This document shows, piece by piece, positions 4,246 to 62,653 of a stretch of DNA of 64,000 nt. Made by a program: the position numbers and the translations under genes. The notes below the pieces were generated by a model. The model saw nothing but the letters and a program-made list of their open reading frames with translations. It ran no database searches and was not told the DNA's origin. Position 1 is the first letter of the stretch, and each line of letters starts with the position of its first letter. Source of the stretch: Azospirillaceae bacterium (GTDB lineage: Bacteria; Pseudomonadota; Alphaproteobacteria; Azospirillales; Azospirillaceae); contig DASQNC010000071.1 in the NCBI GenBank assembly GCA_035645145.1, positions 62,001 through 126,000 on the forward strand. Direction: 5' to 3'.

Positions 4246-4610
4246 CCACCGATCCGAAGCCCTATTACACCACGCATGTCTTCTGCTGCACGAACCGGCG
4301 GCCGGACGGGCACCGCCGGGGATCCTGCGCGGCGCGCGGATCGGAGCCGTTGCGCAACTACATGAAGGCGCGCGCGAAGGAGCTGGGCATCCCCGGCGTG
4401 CGCATCAACACCGCCGGTTGCCTGGACCGGTGCGAGCTGGGCCCGGTGATGGTCATCTATCCCGAGGGCATCTGGTACACCTACCGGAGCCAAGCCGACA
4501 TCGACGAAATCCTGGACACCCATCTGCGCAATGGCGGCCGGGTCGAGCGCCTGATGCTGGACGCCGCGCAGACCGAACTGCGGCCCGAACAAAGGACGGC
4601 CGCCGAGTGA
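4242..4610 (+). CDS. (2Fe-2S) ferredoxin domain-containing protein, thioredoxin-like fold
   Basis: 122 residues from a GTG start that overlaps the previous stop. HVFCCTNRRPDGHRRGSC and TAGCLDRCELGPVM give the spaced cysteines of thioredoxin-like [2Fe-2S] ferredoxins (NuoE-type fold; Cys in CC, SC, GC and RC). YPEGIWYTYR is the usual C-terminal part of this standalone family. It probably carries electrons in the cytoplasm; the partner is unknown. The stop overlaps the GTG start of mnmE, so three genes form an end-to-start overlapping unit. Confidence 0.88.
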   Translation: MTTDPKPYYTTHVFCCTNRRPDGHRRGSCAARGSEPLRNYMKARAKELGIPGVRINTAGCLDRCELGPVMVIYPEGIWYTYRSQADIDEILDTHLRNGGRVERLMLDAAQTELRPEQRTAAE

Positions 4611-5974
4611 GCGTGGAGGTTCGGGACACCGGCGCCCTGACCGCCGGCGCTGGAAACACCACCATTTTCGCGTTGGCTTCGGGGGCCGGTGCGGCCGGCG
4701 TGGCGGTGGTCCGGCTCTCCGGTCCGGCAGCGGGCGATGCCCTGGTCGCATTGACCGGTCGCCCCCTGCCCCGCCCGCGCACGGCGGCCCTGCGCCGCCT
4801 GTCCGACCCGGGCACGGGCGAGGTGTTGGACGACGCCCTGGTCCTGTGGTTTCCCGCCCCGGGCAGCTACACCGGGGAGCCGGTGGTCGAGCTGCACGTC
4901 CATGGCGGTCGCGCCGTGATCGCCGGTGTCGTCCGGGCATTGGGTGCCCGGCCCGGCCTGCGGCCGGCCGAACCCGGCGAGTTCACCCGGCGCGCGTTCG
5001 AGAGCGGCAAGCTGGACCTGACGGCGGCGGAGGCCGTGGCCGACCTGGTGGACGCCGAGACATCCGCCCAGCGGCGGCAGGCCCTGCGACAGATGGATGG
5101 GGCGCTGGGGCGGCTCTACGACGGGTGGCGTCTGCGCCTGACGCGCACGCTTGCGCATCTGGAAGCGGACATCGATTTCCCGGACGAGGATCTGCCGGGC
5201 GGCGTGGCCGATGCGGTTCGTCCCGAGGTGGATGCGCTGGCGGCGGAGATTGCCGCGCATCTCGACGACCGGCACCGGGGTGAACGGCTGCGCGAAGGGG
5301 TGTCGGTCGCCATCGTCGGCGCGCCCAACGCGGGGAAGTCCTCGCTGCTGAACGCGCTGGCCGGACGGGACGCCGCGATCGTGTCGGCCCGCGCGGGCAC
5401 CACCCGCGATGTCGTCGAGGTGCACCTGGACGTGGGTGGCTACCCCGTGGTCCTGGCCGACACCGCGGGCCTGCGCGAGACCGAGGACGAGATCGAGGCC
5501 GAGGGCGTGCGGCGGGCCCGGGCTCGCGCCGCCGCGGCCGATCTGAAGCTGGCCGTCTTCGACGCGACCCGGCCACTGGATGCGGCGACGCGGGCCCTGG
5601 TGGATGGGGACACGGTGCCGGTGCTGAACAAGGCCGACCTTGCGACGGGGCTGCCCACGGAGGTCGGGGGGCGCACCGCCATCGCCGTCTCGGCACTGCG
5701 GGGCGACGGGTTGGACCGCTTGCTGGACCGGTTCGCGGCCGAGGTGGGGGCCCGGTATGGTGCTGCGGAGGCCCCTGCCCTCACCCGCGCCCGGCATCGC
5801 TCGGCGTTGGAGGAGGCACTGGCCGCACTGCGCCGGTCGGGCGGTGCCCCGTTGCCGGAGTTGGCGGCCGAGGATGTGCGGCTGGCAGTGCGTGCGCTGG
5901 GCCGTATCACCGGCCGGGTGGATGTGGAGGATCTGCTGGACGTCATCTTCCGCGATTTCTGCATCGGGAAATAG
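4607..5974 (+). CDS. mnmE: tRNA uridine-5-carboxymethylaminomethyl(34) synthesis GTPase MnmE
   Basis: 455 residues from a GTG at 4607 overlapping the upstream TGA. The N-terminal tetrahydrofolate-binding domain has GAAGVAVVRLSGP and EPGEFTRRAFESGKLDLTAAE. The G domain begins near residue 236 with GAPNAGKSSLLN, followed by TTRDV, DTAG and NKAD. The protein ends FCIGK, the conserved C-terminal motif whose Cys is characteristic of MnmE. With MnmG it installs the cmnm5 modification at U34 of several tRNAs. mnmG lies 0.5 kb downstream, separated by a parS palindrome and a DUF4242 gene. Confidence 0.97.
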   Translation: MSVEVRDTGALTAGAGNTTIFALASGAGAAGVAVVRLSGPAAGDALVALTGRPLPRPRTAALRRLSDPGTGEVLDDALVLWFPAPGSYTGEPVVELHVHGGRAVIAGVVRALGARPGLRPAEPGEFTRRAFESGKLDLTAAEAVADLVDAETSAQRRQALRQMDGALGRLYDGWRLRLTRTLAHLEADIDFPDEDLPGGVADAVRPEVDALAAEIAAHLDDRHRGERLREGVSVAIVGAPNAGKSSLLNALAGRDAAIVSARAGTTRDVVEVHLDVGGYPVVLADTAGLRETEDEIEAEGVRRARARAAAADLKLAVFDATRPLDAATRALVDGDTVPVLNKADLATGLPTEVGGRTAIAVSALRGDGLDRLLDRFAAEVGARYGAAEAPALTRARHRSALEEALAALRRSGGAPLPELAAEDVRLAVRALGRITGRVDVEDLLDVIFRDFCIGK

Positions 5975-6003: not shown

Positions 6004-6033
6004 GGGTCAGTGTTTCACGTGAAACACTGACCC
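6004..6033. promoter_or_regulatory. parS centromere site within a 30-bp perfect palindrome
   Basis: Bases 6011-6026 read TGTTTCACGTGAAACA, the consensus ParB-binding site. The symmetry extends seven bases further on each side (GGGTCAG left, CTGACCC right), so all 30 bases are self-complementary. The parA and parB genes are 3-5 kb downstream. The palindrome lies 29 bases after the mnmE stop and could also fold in RNA, but no T-tract follows, so a terminator role is weak. Confidence 0.93.
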
Positions 6034-6128
6034 CTCGCACATATGCCGGGTGCCCACCGGACGCTGGCGGCCGGTTGGGCCTACACTTTCCCTGGACGGC
6101 CGCGACCGCCGTTCAAGGGGAGGATGTC

Positions 6129-6401
6129 ATGCGCAGGTTCATCGTCGAACGCGACATGCCGGGCATTGGGCAGGTGGATTCGACCACCATGGGGACGATC
6201 GCCCGGACGTCCTGCGACGCCCAGCGCGAGGTGGGAGCCGACGTCCAGTGGGTCGAGTCCTACATCGCCGACAACAAGACCTATTGCGTCTACATGGCCG
6301 AGAACGCCGAGGTCGTGCGCCGCCACGGGGAAATCGCGGGCTTCCCGATCACCGCGATCCGGGAAGTGCGAGGGATGCTCGACCCCACCATGGCGGCTTG
6401 A
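6129..6401 (+). CDS. DUF4242 domain small protein
   Basis: 90 residues, MRRFIVERDMPGIGQVDS, then SCDAQREVGADVQWVESYI and KTYCVYMAENAEVVRRHGE. This is the pattern of the DUF4242 family (SCO4226-like ferredoxin-fold proteins, some described as nickel-binding). Function is not established. A good AGGGGAGGA ribosome binding site lies just upstream of the ATG. It is inserted between mnmE and mnmG, which are adjacent in most relatives. Confidence 0.82.
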   Translation: MRRFIVERDMPGIGQVDSTTMGTIARTSCDAQREVGADVQWVESYIADNKTYCVYMAENAEVVRRHGEIAGFPITAIREVRGMLDPTMAA

Positions 6402-6458
6402 GCGCGCACCCGCCGCCCGCCACTTGCCGTGGGATCAGCGGACCGGCATATACGGTCC

Positions 6459-8339
6459 ATGCGGACCTTCGATGTCATTGTGGTGGGCGGCGGCCACGCC
6501 GGCTGCGAAGCGGCGGCGGCGGCCGCGCGGATGGGCGCCAGCACGGCGCTGGTGACCCATAAGGCCGAGACCATCGGCGAGATGTCCTGCAACCCGGCCA
6601 TTGGCGGCCTGGGCAAGGGCCATCTCGTCCGCGAGATCGACGCCCTGGACGGGTTGATGGGCCGCGTGATCGATCAGGCCGGAATCCAGTTCCGGATCCT
6701 GAACGCATCGAAGGGACCTGCCGTCCGCGGGCCGCGGGCCCAGGCGGACCGCAAGCTTTACCGGCAGGCCATGCAGGCGGCGCTGGCCGCGCAGCCGGGC
6801 CTGGAGATCGTGGCCGCGGCGGTCGAGGACCTGATCGTCGAGGCGGGCCGCTGCGTCGGTGTCGTCACCGGCACGGGCGAGACGATCCGGGCCGGGGCCG
6901 TCGTTCTGACCACCGGCACCTTCCTGCGCGGCCTGATCCACATCGGCGCGGAGAAGATCCCCGCCGGGCGCGTCGGCGAGGCGCCGGCGATGGGGCTGTC
7001 GGCCACGCTGGCGGCCGCGGGATTCCCGCTGGGACGCTTGAAGACCGGCACGCCGCCGCGGCTCGACGGGCGGACCATCGACTGGGCGTCGTTGGACGTG
7101 CAGCCGGGGGACGACCCGCCCCCGCCCTTCTCCTACCTGACCGACCGGATCACCACGCCGCAGATCGCCTGCCACATCACCGAGACCACGGCGGCGACGC
7201 ACGCGATCATCCACGCGAACCTGCACCGCGCGCCCATGTACTCCGGCCAGATCGAGAGCACGGGGCCGCGCTACTGCCCGTCCATCGAGGACAAGGTGGT
7301 GCGCTTTGCGGACAAGCCGCGGCATCAGCTTTTCCTGGAGCCGGAGGGGCTGGACGACCATCTCGTCTATCCCAACGGCATTTCCACCTCGTTGCCGCGG
7401 GACGTGCAGCTGGAGCTGCTGAAGACGATTCCCGGCCTGGAACGGGCGGTCATGGTCCGGCCCGGCTATGCGATCGAATACGACTATGTCGATCCCCGCG
7501 AGTTGCGGGCGACGCTGGAGACCAAGCGGATGCCCGGCCTGTTCCTGGCCGGACAGATCAACGGCACCACCGGGTACGAGGAGGCCGCCGCCCAGGGGCT
7601 GATGGCCGGCATCAACGCCGCGCTTGCGGCCGGCAGCGGACACGGACCGGGCGACCGCCCGGCCTTCGTTCTGGATCGGGCCGACGCCTATATCGGCGTT
7701 CTGATCGACGACCTGATCACCCGGGGGGCGAACGAGCCCTACCGCATGTTCACCAGCCGGGCCGAGTACCGTTTGAGCCTGCGCGCCGACAATGCCGACC
7801 AGCGCCTGACCGCCAAGGGGGCGGCGGTCGGGGCCGTGGGACCGGTCCGGGCCGCCGCGTTTGCGGCCAAGATGGAGCGCATCGATGCCGCCCGCGCACG
7901 GCTGCACGGCCTGTCCGCCACGCCGAACGAGCTGGAGCGCCGGGGCCTGGCCGTCAACCGCGACGGGGTGCGCCGCACCGCGTTCGACCTGCTGCGCTAT
8001 CCCGGGATGACGTTGGCCCGGGTCGCGGAGCTGTGGCCCGAGTTGCAGGGGCTGCCGGCGGATGTGGGCGAACAGTTGGAGATCGACGCGCTGTACGCCG
8101 GGTACATCGAGCGCCAGGAGGCGGACATCCGGGCCTTCCGCAAGGACGAGGCGCTGGAGCTTCCTCCCGACCTGGACTACGCCGCGGTGGGCAGCCTGTC
8201 CAACGAGGTGCGGCAGAAGCTGAGCGCGGCCCGACCGTTGACGCTCGGCGCCGCCGCCCGGATCCCGGGGGTCACCCCGGCGGCGTTGACCGCCCTGCTC
8301 CGCCATGTGAAGCGGCGGCCGGACTCCCTCAGCGCATAA
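6459..8339 (+). CDS. mnmG: tRNA uridine-5-carboxymethylaminomethyl(34) synthesis enzyme MnmG
   Basis: 626 residues. FAD-binding [16 protein letters not shown] lies at the N-terminus, then [17 protein letters not shown], the MnmG signature, and [16 protein letters not shown] around residue 365. The C-terminal helical domain ends with a run such as [16 protein letters not shown], normal for the family. It is the FAD partner of MnmE in wobble uridine modification. The ATG at 6459 places the dinucleotide-binding fold immediately at the start; an in-frame GTG at 6429 would add 10 residues and is less likely. rsmG starts 15 bases after the stop. Confidence 0.97.
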
Positions 8340-8354
8340 GGGCCGGGATAAACC

Positions 8355-8999
8355 ATGACGGTGCGATCCGGCGGGGCGTTCGGGCCCGACCGCTTTGCGG
8401 ACGAAACCGGTGTTTCACGTGAAACACGGGACCGCTTGGCAATCTATGCGGCACTGCTGGCCAAGTGGAACCCGCGCATCAATCTGGTCGCGGCCTCGAC
8501 GTTGGACGATGTCTGGCGGCGGCACCTGCTCGATTCGGCGCAATTGCATCCCCTTCTTCCGCCGAGGGCCGAAGTGCTGGTCGATTTCGGGAGCGGCGCC
8601 GGCTTTCCCGGTCTGGTGCTGGCGATCCTGGGCGGTCCGCATGTGCACCTGATCGACAGCGACAAGCGGAAATGCGCCTTCCTGCGCGAAGTCGCGCGGG
8701 AGACCGGGGCGCGTGTGACGGTCCACGCCGCCCGGATCGAGGACGTGCCCCCCTTTCCTGCCGATGTGGCCACGGCCCGCGCCTTGGCGTCCTTGGACAT
8801 GCTGGTCGGCTGGGCCGCGCCGTTCGTCGGGCGGGACGGCCAATGCCTGTTCCTGAAGGGGGCGCGGCTGGATGCGGAATTGACCGAGGCCGCGCGGAAT
8901 TGGACAATGCGCGTGGACCGGATCGCCAGCCGCACCGATCCCTCCGGTACCATCGTGCGACTCCAGGACATCGCCAGTGTCGAGCGCGACCCCGCTTAA
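8355..8999 (+). CDS. rsmG: 16S rRNA (guanine(527)-N(7))-methyltransferase RsmG
   Basis: 214 residues with WNPRINLVAAS, RHLLDSAQL and the S-adenosylmethionine loop VDFGSGAGFPGLVLAIL, all diagnostic of RsmG (GidB). It methylates G527 of 16S rRNA. Codons for GVSRETRD near residue 20 are encoded by a perfect parS site, so this stretch of protein is constrained by DNA-level function. The 3' end overlaps the parA start by 23 bases. Confidence 0.96.
   Translation: MTVRSGGAFGPDRFADETGVSRETRDRLAIYAALLAKWNPRINLVAASTLDDVWRRHLLDSAQLHPLLPPRAEVLVDFGSGAGFPGLVLAILGGPHVHLIDSDKRKCAFLREVARETGARVTVHAARIEDVPPFPADVATARALASLDMLVGWAAPFVGRDGQCLFLKGARLDAELTEAARNWTMRVDRIASRTDPSGTIVRLQDIASVERDPA
8411..8426. promoter_or_regulatory. 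parS centromere site inside rsmG
   Basis: TGTTTCACGTGAAACA, a perfect 16-bp match to the ParB-binding consensus, read in the rsmG frame as Val-Ser-Arg-Glu-Thr. It is 566 bases upstream of parA and 2.4 kb from the first parS, giving a clustered centromere beside parAB as in many bacteria. Confidence 0.94.
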
Positions 9000-9804
9000 G
9001 CCGTCCGGCGCTCCGCAGCCGGCGCGCCCCCGCATCATTGCCATCGCCAACCAGAAGGGGGGCGTGGGCAAGACCACGACCGCCATCAACCTGGCGACGG
9101 CCTTGGCCGCCGCGCGCAAGCGCACGCTGCTGATCGACCTCGACCCGCAGGGCAACGCCTCGACGGGCCTCGGCATCGAGCGGCAGAAGCGCAAGGTTGG
9201 CATCTACGACGTGCTGTTCGGCAGCACCAAGGCCGACACGGTGGCGGTGGCGACATCCGTGCCCAACCTGTCCATCATCACCGCGTCGGTGGACCTGTCC
9301 GGGGCCGAGTTGGAACTGGTCGGCGCCGACCGGCGGGAATACCGTCTGCAGGATGCCTTGGCCACCGGCCTGACCGCCGACTATGTGTTGATTGACTGCC
9401 CGCCCGCGCTCGGCCTTCTGACCCTGAATGCCTTGGTGGCCGCCGATTCCGTCCTGGTGCCCCTGCAGTGCGAATTCTACGCGCTGGAAGGCCTGTCGCA
9501 CCTGATCCGCACCATCGAACGGACGAAGCGCACCTTCAACCCGCAGCTCGAGATCGCGGGCGTGGTCCTGACCATGTACGACAAGCGCAACAACCTGTCG
9601 GACATGGTGGCGGCCGACGTCCGCGGCTTCTTCGGGGACAAGGTGTACGAAACCGTCATTCCGCGGAACGTGCGGGTGTCCGAAGCGCCGTCGCACGGCA
9701 AGCCCGTGCTGATCTACGACGCCAAATCGTCCGGCGCGCAGGCTTACATCCAGTTGGCGGTGGAAATGCTCAAACGCGAGAAGCAGCGGAAGGCCGGCGC
9801 ATGA
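8977..9804 (+). CDS. parA: chromosome partitioning ATPase ParA
   Basis: 275 residues beginning at a GTG that overlaps rsmG by 23 bases. The deviant Walker A motif NQKGGVGKTTTAINLA appears near residue 25, followed by LLIDLDPQGNASTGLG and DYVLIDCPPALGLLTLNAL (Walker B region). This is a chromosomal ParA/Soj-type ATPase without the N-terminal DNA-binding domain of plasmid type Ia ParA. It binds DNA non-specifically and moves ParB-parS complexes. The stop overlaps the parB start (ATGA). Confidence 0.97.
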   Translation: MSSATPLKPSGAPQPARPRIIAIANQKGGVGKTTTAINLATALAAARKRTLLIDLDPQGNASTGLGIERQKRKVGIYDVLFGSTKADTVAVATSVPNLSIITASVDLSGAELELVGADRREYRLQDALATGLTADYVLIDCPPALGLLTLNALVAADSVLVPLQCEFYALEGLSHLIRTIERTKRTFNPQLEIAGVVLTMYDKRNNLSDMVAADVRGFFGDKVYETVIPRNVRVSEAPSHGKPVLIYDAKSSGAQAYIQLAVEMLKREKQRKAGA

Positions 9805-10664
9805 GTGCGGAGGATCGCAAGCGGGGGCTTGGACGGGGTCTGTCGGCCCTGTTCGGCGATGACGGGGCCGAGACGGACGGCGAGGCCCCGCGCACCTTGC
9901 CGATCGAATTCCTGCAGCCCGGAAAATACCAGCCCCGGCGCCGGTTCGACGAGGCCGCCGTGGCAAGCCTGGCCGAGTCCGTGCGCGAACGGGGCGTGTT
10001 GCAGCCCCTGCTGGTTCGCAAGCTGGGGCCGGACCGGTACGAGATCATCGCCGGCGAGCGCCGCTGGCGCGCCTCCCAGATGGCCGGCCTGCACGAGGTG
10101 CCGGTCCTCGTCCGCGAACTGGACGACCGTCAGGCGCTGGAAGTCGCGCTGGTGGAGAACGTCCAGCGCGAGGATCTGACGCCGATCGAAGAGGCCGAGG
10201 GCTACAAGCGCCTGATGGACGAGTTCGACCACACCCAGGAGGAGTTGGCGCGAACCGTCGGCAAGAGCCGCAGCCACATCGCCAACATGCTGCGCCTGCT
10301 GGCGCTGCCCGATCCCGTGAAGGCCCTGATCGCCGATGGCGAAATCACCGCCGGCCATGCCCGGGCGCTGCTGACCCTGCCCGACCCGGTCGCGGCGGCC
10401 AAGGAGGTGGTCCGCAGGGGCCTCAATGTCCGCCAGACCGAACTGCTCGCGCGTCAAGGAACGATGGCCGAGGAAACGGGCGGGGCGGGGCGCCGGAACG
10501 GCGGTGCCGCAAAGGATGCCGACACCGAGGCGTTGGAGCGCGAGCTGGCCCTGGCACTCGGGTTGAAGGTGGCCATATCCCATGCCGCGAAGGGCGGCAC
10601 GTTGACCATCCATTACAAGGACCTGGATCAGCTGGATGGCGTCATCGCGCGATTGCGCGGTTAG
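9801..10664 (+). CDS. parB: chromosome partitioning protein ParB
   Basis: 287 residues starting MSAEDRKRGLGRGLSALFGD, the LGRGLSAL box being the ParA-interacting N-terminus of ParB/Spo0J. Then EFLQPGKYQPRRRFDE, the CTPase core with GERRWRASQMAGL, and a helix-turn-helix QEELARTVGKSRSHIANML that contacts parS. The C-terminal dimerisation domain ends at ARLRG. It loads on the two perfect parS sites in this window and spreads along DNA. The ATG at 9801 overlaps the parA stop. Confidence 0.97.
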   Translation: MSAEDRKRGLGRGLSALFGDDGAETDGEAPRTLPIEFLQPGKYQPRRRFDEAAVASLAESVRERGVLQPLLVRKLGPDRYEIIAGERRWRASQMAGLHEVPVLVRELDDRQALEVALVENVQREDLTPIEEAEGYKRLMDEFDHTQEELARTVGKSRSHIANMLRLLALPDPVKALIADGEITAGHARALLTLPDPVAAAKEVVRRGLNVRQTELLARQGTMAEETGGAGRRNGGAAKDADTEALERELALALGLKVAISHAAKGGTLTIHYKDLDQLDGVIARLRG

Positions 10665-19530: not shown

Positions 19531-19566
19531 GCGGTGGCGGCTTCGGCCGCCACCGCTTATTTTTTG
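19531..19566 (+). terminator. intrinsic terminator of the porin gene
   Basis: GCGGTGGCGGC (19531-19541), a TTCG tetraloop, GCCGCCACCGC (19546-19556), then TTATTTTTTG. An 11-bp perfect GC-rich stem with a T-tract. It ends four bases before the start codon of the next gene. Confidence 0.95.
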
Positions 19567-58225: not shown

Positions 58226-59124
58226 CCCACGTCTGCGCCGTCATCCTGACCTGGAACCGGAAGGACCTGCTGGCCCGGTGCCTGGCGGCCATCGCCGCGC
58301 AGTCGCGACCGCCGGACAGGGTGGTGGTGGTGGACAACGCGTCCACCGACGGCACCGCGGAGATGCTGGCCGCACAGGGTTGGGCGGCGCGCCTGCCCCT
58401 GGTCCACCAGGTGTTGCCCGGCAACCTCGGCGCATCGGGCGGCTTCAGCGCCTGTTTCAAGGTGGCGGCCGAGTGCGGCGCGGACTACGCCTGGATCATG
58501 GACGACGACGTGATCCCCGATCCGGGCGCGCTCGCCGGTCTGTTGCACGCTGCCGCCACGCTGGACGAACCTTTCTCCTACCTTGCAAGCCGGGTCCTGG
58601 GGCCGGACGGCGCGTCCATGAATGTGCCGGAGCCCGACACCCGCGGCAGCGACGACCGCTATCCCGATTGGGACCGCCGGCTGGACGACGGTCTGGTCAA
58701 GATCCGCCGTTCCACCTTCGTTTCGATTCTTGTTCCACGTGAAACGTTGGCCCACATCTCCCCGCCCTCGGCGGATTTCGTCATGTGGGGCGAGGATGCG
58801 GACTGGACGCTGCGGGCCACGTCCTGGCGGCCGGCCTGGATCGTCGGTGGCAGCCGGGTCGTCCATGCACGGGCCAGCTACGGCCCGCCCGACAGCCCGA
58901 ACGAGGCCGATCCGGCCCGGGTGGGGCGTCTGTTCTACCTGTACCGGAACGAAGTCTACATCGCGAGCCGCCACTACGGCATCGGCGCGGTCGTGCGCGT
59001 GGTGGCCGGCAATCTCCGGCGCGCGGTGTTGGAACTGACGCAACGTCCGGTCCGCTGGAACCGCATCGGTGTCGTGCTGCGCGGCCTGGCGGCCGGGATG
59101 CGGTTCAAACCCCGGGACCTGTAG
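58222..59124 (+). CDS. glycosyltransferase family 2
   Basis: 300 residues. VCAVILTWNRKDLLARCLAA, VVVDNASTDGTAEMLA, PGNLGASGGFSACFKVA and WIMDDDVIPDPGAL are the GT2 nucleotide-sugar-binding blocks, the last with the DDD metal motif; the GASGGF and DDD spacing is like rhamnosyl- or galactofuranosyl-transferases. FVMWGEDADWTLRA follows. The ATG overlaps the beta-helix stop (ATGA). It likely adds a sugar during EPS repeat synthesis. Confidence 0.92.
   Translation: MTHVCAVILTWNRKDLLARCLAAIAAQSRPPDRVVVVDNASTDGTAEMLAAQGWAARLPLVHQVLPGNLGASGGFSACFKVAAECGADYAWIMDDDVIPDPGALAGLLHAAATLDEPFSYLASRVLGPDGASMNVPEPDTRGSDDRYPDWDRRLDDGLVKIRRSTFVSILVPRETLAHISPPSADFVMWGEDADWTLRATSWRPAWIVGGSRVVHARASYGPPDSPNEADPARVGRLFYLYRNEVYIASRHYGIGAVVRVVAGNLRRAVLELTQRPVRWNRIGVVLRGLAAGMRFKPRDL
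58731..58746. promoter_or_regulatory. degenerate parS-like sequence inside the glycosyltransferase
   Basis: TGTTCCACGTGAAACG: 14 of 16 bases match TGTTTCACGTGAAACA, and the C at position 5 is allowed in the broader consensus TGTTNCACGTGAAACA, leaving only the last base different. It encodes Val-Pro-Arg-Glu-Thr. About 50 kb from the parAB sites. Binding by ParB is uncertain. Confidence 0.45.
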
Positions 59125-62337: not shown

Positions 62338-62653
62338 GTTCAAACCTCGTACAAGTGTTCGGCCGTGCGGCTTCCCGCATCGGCAACATTCTGGCAGTCG
62401 GATCGCTAAAGGACTGAGAGGGACTGCCGTTGAACACAACTTCGACGGTGCAAATTAACGGAATCTGAATGGCGAAACTTGTCACAGACTATCGTATAAC
62501 GAGTGGGTGCTTGTTTTCTGAGTTTCGAATGCGGAATCTACGTCGGGTTGCGCGGTACACTTTGTCATTTCCTGGGCGCGGCTCCCGTCGTGTGCACAAA
62601 AAAACGGGGCGCCAAAAGGCGCCCCGCTTCCGAACCGGTTCCGTGCGATTGGA
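62338..62653. other. promoter region and terminator between the two beta-helix genes
   Basis: 316 bases with no gene. The left part, lower in GC around 62440-62560, must carry the minus-strand promoter of the 60076 gene; a GTTATACGATAG stretch on the minus strand near 62500 could contribute. The right part holds the terminator of the 62654 gene. Confidence 0.5.
62598..62626 (-). terminator. intrinsic terminator of the second beta-helix/CBM60 gene
   Basis: CGGGGCGCC (62605-62613), four A, GGCGCCCCG (62618-62626); on the minus strand the stem is followed by TTTTTTT. A classical rho-independent terminator 28 bases after the stop of the gene at 62654. Confidence 0.95.

Follow-up and report, generated by a model that had tools for sequence, protein, structure and literature searches.

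A Consensus parS Site Behind mnmE Lies in an Extended Palindrome Whose Complementary Arms Recur Across Azospirillaceae

In the 64,000-nucleotide stretch of Azospirillaceae DNA analyzed here (the window), a consensus parS site behind mnmE is nested in a 30-bp perfect palindrome, and complementary arms around mnmE-proximal parS sites are far commoner in Azospirillaceae than chance allows. The core of these sites is nearly invariant and the arms are unalike from species to species. The best reading would be an ordinary parS whose arms grew by template switching during replication, with weak or no selection on the resulting hairpin, and we give it about an even chance of being right.

Results

The palindrome (6004–6033) begins 29 nt past the mnmE stop codon and reads GGGTCAG-TGTTTCACGTGAAACA-CTGACCC, with 15-nt arms that are 100% complementary and no spacer. 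Its parS core (6011–6026, no strand assigned) is the exact consensus, with 0 mismatches over 16 bp, and the left outer arm GGGTCAG (6004–6010, + strand) forms a perfect inverted repeat with the right outer arm CTGACCC (6027–6033, + strand). This is the sole palindrome with 15-nt arms in the window, the next perfect ones having 11 and 9, and seven extra matches would arise by chance at about 1.2e-4 per site at a GC content of 0.66 (2.4e-4 for both parS sites). The hairpin has a GC-rich 13-bp stem with a 4-nt loop and follows a gene, as the stem of a terminator would. Its folding as RNA (z −4.1) was well under that of dinucleotide shuffles, and as DNA it reached z −6.5 and −5.8 on the two strands against shuffles. 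No Rfam family scored above its gathering score; the only sub-threshold match was DUF1874 (20.6 vs. 42 bits, 6026–6122, minus strand). The initial annotation had described a parS nested in a longer, unusual palindrome, and this was borne out, since runs of at least 7 matching bases were found in only 4 of 50 non-redundant family sites.

The site lies among genes of the + strand. Upstream is mnmE, encoding the tRNA modification GTPase (4607–5974; Pfam TrmE_N, MMR_HSR1 and MnmE_helical; stop TAG at 5972–5974), and downstream are mnmG (6459–8339, start ATG; Pfam GIDA, 2.6e-175, scanned from codon 2 at 6462), rsmG (8355–8999; Pfam GidB, 7.3e-42), parA (8977–9804; Pfam AAA_31 and CbiA) and parB (9801–10664; Pfam ParB_N, HTH_ParB and ParB_C, scanned from 9804). 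The palindrome had been placed between mnmE and mnmG; the site is real, but a SCO4226-like ORF of 90 codons (6129–6401, +; Pfam PF14026, 8e-21) separates it from mnmG. Among the loci listed in the locus comparisons, this ORF was flagged in the window only. A promoter-like TTGCCG...TATACG (6424–6454, +), recognized by consensus match only, lies just 5′ of mnmG.

A second perfect parS (8411–8426, no strand assigned) falls in the 5′ codons of rsmG (VSRET) and served as an unextended control: it is lengthened by one pair only (palindrome 8410–8427), and its folding as DNA (z −1.5) was not far below shuffles, as that of 6004–6033 is. A third, weaker site resembling parS was seen at 58731–58746; its sequence, TGTTCCACGTGAAACG, differs from TGTTTCACGTGAAACA at two positions, and the congener G001 carries a sequence resembling it in a similar context. 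Within 2 mismatches, parS occurs at three places in the whole 3.9-Mb assembly, all on one contig and inside 53 kb. The core at 6011–6026 thus matches the consensus, is linked to parA and parB and belongs to a small cluster of copies; from its consensus sequence and the parAB linkage it is probably an ordinary chromosomal parS and a putative ParB loading site.

Related loci were drawn from 82 genomes of one family, together with 80 named loci found with MnmE. We take this family to be Azospirillaceae because the best 15 of the 80 named loci belong to Azospirillum, Skermanella, Nitrospirillum or Oleisolibacter. In most family loci parS lies directly 3′ of mnmE; it is absent from the gap in 9 of the 77 rows of the mnmE tree. 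The Niveispirillum-type loci L194–L201 have a mnmE-mnmG gap without parS, and their parS lies upstream of mnmE. In the nine family loci lacking a near-consensus parS (at most 1 mismatch) in the gap, no consistent stem was found there. When the entire mnmE-mnmG gap was folded, the groups were not sharply distinguished (mean z −1.7, −1.4 and −1.0).

Ungapped matching of the arms gave a mild excess at 61 mnmE-mnmG sites from the window and named genomes (2.41 of 7 positions vs. 2.00, a level reached in 10 of 2000 permutations) and an equal one at 70 rsmG sites (2.50 vs. 2.04; 0 of 2000). We therefore turned to a gap-tolerant folding test with swapped flanks and treated the family separately. In this test 18 nt on the left, the core and 18 nt on the right were folded with the core stem enforced, and each left flank was joined to right flanks from other sites as a null. 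Sites with exactly duplicated flanks, and then those with flanks at least 75% identical, were removed, which reduced 72 family sites to 50. These 50 mnmE-mnmG sites folded at a mean of −20.10 kcal/mol, compared with −16.51 (sd 0.51) after swapping, with 0 of 5000 permutations as low, and 13 of them ranked in the top 5% against their own swaps.

This wider set took in two loci with a poor mnmE match (in-frame stops) and parS near other genes, L177 and L178, and also four sites whose distance from the stop exceeded 80 nt or whose gap was wide. A strict set was thus restricted to sites at most 80 nt from the mnmE stop in gaps of at most 700, with doubtful loci out; 8 of the 72 were dropped and 43 non-redundant sites remained. 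Their fold energy was −20.48 against −17.04 (sd 0.55) for swaps. At least 7 of 12 positions were paired in 14 of the 43 (2.31 expected under flank swaps), runs of at least 5 occurred in 7 (0.43 expected) and runs of at least 7 in 3. When the window was left out (42 sites) the corresponding counts were 13, 6 (0.41 expected) and 2.

By contrast, the 25 family rsmG sites showed no site-specific pairing (−18.65 vs. −18.24 for swaps, p 0.24). They too were better folded than their own shuffled flanks (z −5.6 on the + strand), which counts against specificity; conserved rsmG codons pair weakly, so only the swap null separates the rsmG sites. Outside the family, no pairing signal was seen at 38 mnmE-mnmG sites (−11.67 vs. 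−11.59, p 0.41), while 46 rsmG sites did show site-specific pairing above swaps (−14.94 vs. −13.37, 0 of 5000), perhaps caused by GC heterogeneity. Within the family the outer arms thus co-vary, and the initial annotation, which random outer arms in close relatives would have refuted, is not overturned as a whole. In part it is contradicted: the mnmE-mnmG gap gives no signal outside the family, 42 of the 68 family loci with parS at this place have no strong stem, and the sole congener, L150 (G001), also has a parS between the two genes but only an imperfect, GC-rich stem around it. The congener's gap has diverged too far from that of the window to reveal a multi-base change made in a single step.

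It is the symmetry, not the sequence, that recurs. Perfect 7-bp arms were found in the window (GGGTCAG), L132 (CACCCCA) and L187 (CCCCCTA), and perfect 11-bp arms in L177 (CCCTGCTATGG); in L149 the arm is GGGATGGGCGG, with a wobble adjoining the core. In L177 (site 3717 after reversal) a perfect 38-bp palindrome surrounds parS, with a DUF255/thioredoxin-like gene on one side and a zinc-binding dehydrogenase gene on the other, and L178 carries an arm pair related to that of L177 with one base pair swapped.

With redundant loci included, stems were present in 0 of 17 loci where parS lies at most 7 nt from the mnmE stop, in 3 of 6 at 8–13 nt and in 22 of 52 at 14 nt or more; stems are confined to sites with a free left flank, and are absent where the flanks are coding or overlap the stop. 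Outside the family, none of the 22 mnmE-mnmG parS sites with a spacing of at least 14 had a stem. A class-wide draw of Alphaproteobacteria contained the anchored pattern in 32 of 385 genomes and gave 30 loci, 28 of them outside the family, of which 2 had a stem score of at least 5. Mean flank GC was 0.49 and 0.52 in the outside-family sets and 0.69 in the family. At a GC of at least 0.55, stems were present in 22 of 69 family sites vs. 1 of 26 outsiders (Fisher p 0.003), and at 0.65 or more in 19 of 56 vs. 0 of 7 (p 0.09), only 7 outside sites being that GC-rich. Lineage and base composition are thus incompletely separated as determinants of the stem.

On a tree built from 77 MnmE C-terminal parts, a strong stem was called at an energy of −23 or lower with at least 9 flank pairs, a cut-off chosen by eye, and was present in 26 of the 68 family loci with parS. 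The stem state required 16 changes, against a mean of 22.1 for shuffled labels, and at least 5 were forced by well-supported branches; the trait is clustered on the tree, yet was gained or lost repeatedly. Among Nitrospirillum-type near neighbours, L187 has a perfect 30-bp palindrome and L191 none. Every member of a five-locus clade (L129, L130, L149, L152 and L153) has a stem. Across the 13 distinct sequences of the A. brasilense group a bulged stem was conserved with 152 of 182 cells paired, compared with 35–64% in slid controls; L136 was left out of this count, its centre being shifted. The changes in this stem comprised 17 one-sided standard changes and compensatory double changes in 0 cells, and one-base bulges push the outer arms off the parS dyad.

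Locus L136 (Azospirillum, about 1549–1564 in mnmE orientation) showed the parS-centred segment inverted relative to close relatives, with the outer flanks kept: the 4–6 nt on each side of parS match L146 when inverted (8 of 8, 9 of 10 and 11 of 12). This was the one clear case of spacer inversion, and it lies outside the lineage of the window.

Additionally, the surroundings of the hairpin were analyzed for signs of a transcript end. No T-tract follows the stem at 6004–6033, the next 8 bases holding 1 T on the + strand and 2 on the − strand; a search for terminator-like sites reported none at this position, and T content 3′ of parS was not raised across the family. Elsewhere in the window, strong T-tract hairpins at 19531–19556 (+) and 62605–62626 (−) are likely intrinsic terminators. 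Upstream of mnmG, in 59 family loci, promoter-like motifs of the form TTGACT/TTGGCG-17-TAAAGT/TATGGT had a mean best score of 7.9 of 12 against 6.1 for shuffled sequence, and these 17-spaced motifs of the relatives were stronger than the TTGCCG...TATACG of the window. With such a promoter-like pair just 5′ of mnmG, the hairpin lies after the end of one gene and before what is likely the next promoter. In L185–L191, among others, TTGACT-17-TAAAGT has a −10 that ends about 10–15 nt ahead of the codon aligned with codon 2 of mnmG, and the position of the motif suggests a near-leaderless mnmG transcript in such family loci.

A stem selected as RNA is expected to tolerate G-T over A-C mismatches on the transcribed strand. 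In a strand-symmetric alignment 16 of the 50 sites scored at least 5 (2.86 expected) and contained 14 G-T and 3 A-C mismatches, compared with 56:43 in swapped flanks (swap ratio 0.566, p 0.025). When each combination of position and letters was counted a single time the ratio was 10:3, and four of the 16 high-scoring sites are related. The all-position mismatch count gave no G-T excess (G-T minus A-C 9 vs. 12.8 expected), and the fold-based energy difference between strands had p 0.097. The bias is a hint, a mild pointer to an RNA hairpin.

Discussion

The favoured reading would start from a parS lying beside parAB in the gap behind mnmE, where constraint is loose. This palindrome may seed template switching during replication, in which one flank is copied onto the other, and such events would add complementary arms, perfect imperfect ones or flip the central segment. 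Repeated in Azospirillaceae, they would leave a parS-centred hairpin with a distinct arm sequence per lineage, which would later decay; selection for the hairpin would be weak at most, perhaps as the 3′ end of the mnmE mRNA. That template switching caused the arms is our inference, with which several observations agree: symmetry recurs without shared sequence (swap tests, unrelated arms), turnover on the mnmE tree is fast (L187 vs. L191), the inversion in L136 is a hallmark of the process, stems are limited to free flanks and no U-tract follows the stem. Against it, outside-family sites in similar gaps rarely have stems, where a general mutational process should also act, an argument softened by the AT-richer flanks there. 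The excess of G-T over A-C would be expected of an RNA hairpin, not of a strand-neutral process; one clade has stems throughout, and only one clear inversion was found. Candidate causes of the strong signal in this family are its GC content, differences in replication or repair, and a weak selective advantage of ending an mRNA there.

Selection for an RNA hairpin, with the parS stem-loop forming the 3′ end of the mnmE mRNA just before the mnmG promoter, is a tentative alternative. The hairpin might block an exonuclease, end transcription with the help of Rho or act as a non-canonical terminator, one sequence being both centromere and transcript end. It lies close behind the mnmE stop and ahead of a promoter-like motif in many relatives, bulged and G-U stems such as those of the A. 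brasilense group are tolerated, and the mismatch bias points the same way. Telling against it are the lack of a U-tract 3′ of the stem where two other hairpins of the window have one, the loci without a strong stem, the missing compensatory changes in the A. brasilense group, the strand difference and all-position count given above, and the presence of four related loci among the wobble sites. A canonical intrinsic terminator was rejected on the U-tract; a role as an RNA 3′-end hairpin may still apply. The initial suggestion of a transcript end for mnmE thus stands as possible by position and mild wobble bias, but not in its U-tract. More doubtful is a dual element in Azospirillaceae that would combine a ParB loading site with an mnmE mRNA 3′ hairpin, its arms renewed by parS-seeded template switching, and insulate mnmG-rsmG-parAB.

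A function at the DNA level, either through an effect of the longer palindrome on ParB loading or through its extrusion as a cruciform, appears unlikely. Four lineages have a perfect dyad with parS at its centre, and each DNA strand folds strongly in single-stranded form, both of which would fit such a role. In the A. brasilense group, however, bulges displace the outer arms from the dyad axis, and such arms are missing at most parS sites and were unseen at the rsmG parS. The cruciform itself, raised initially, is thermodynamically possible according to the modelled DNA folding. Chance is very unlikely as the origin of the arms: a 7-base match has a small probability per site and very many genomes exist, but the runs of at least 5 in the strict set exceed expectation with or without the window. 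Chance is disfavoured for the family, and for the window site taken alone it is a possible source. Least credible of all is a second sequence-specific protein on the outer arms, also raised initially and an idea that symmetry alone would favour; arm sequences unrelated between species around a nearly invariant core argue against such a factor, and it was rejected.

If the favoured reading is true, a bacterial centromere site seeds hairpin growth, an invariant palindrome gaining new arms repeatedly. These loci would then offer a natural series for how inverted repeats arise and a means of testing whether a segregation site can end a transcript. If the explanation is ordinary, the case warns against reading a longer recognition sequence into additional symmetry that flanks a palindromic binding site. 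The literature on parS with hairpin, palindrome, cruciform or terminator, covered mostly as titles and abstracts, described no such extension; parS itself is ordinary, and the recurring arm extension appears new as far as titles and abstracts show.

Three known systems can be compared. Passages of PMC8604942 and PMC8794818 describe arm homogenization and spacer inversion as products of template switching at inverted repeats, and PMC8794818 proposes that the process can create RNA hairpins. The arms studied here resemble these products around an inverted repeat, spacer inversion in the single case of L136, but the centre of the window palindrome is a conserved centromere site, and the process is deduced here and not observed. 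Neisserial DNA uptake sequences, in the part of PMC2397512 concerned with them, offer a precedent in which a recognition sequence also serves as a stem at gene ends, as a rho-independent terminator; in the window, the site itself is palindromic, the arms are unrelated to the site and the U-tract is absent. Finally, with the chromosomal ParABS systems, whose parS consensus is given as TGTTNCACGTGAAACA in the relevant portion of PMC7022226, the window shares the exact 16-bp core, the adjacency to parAB and a second copy in rsmG, and it adds seven complementary bases on each side to form a 30-bp perfect palindrome.
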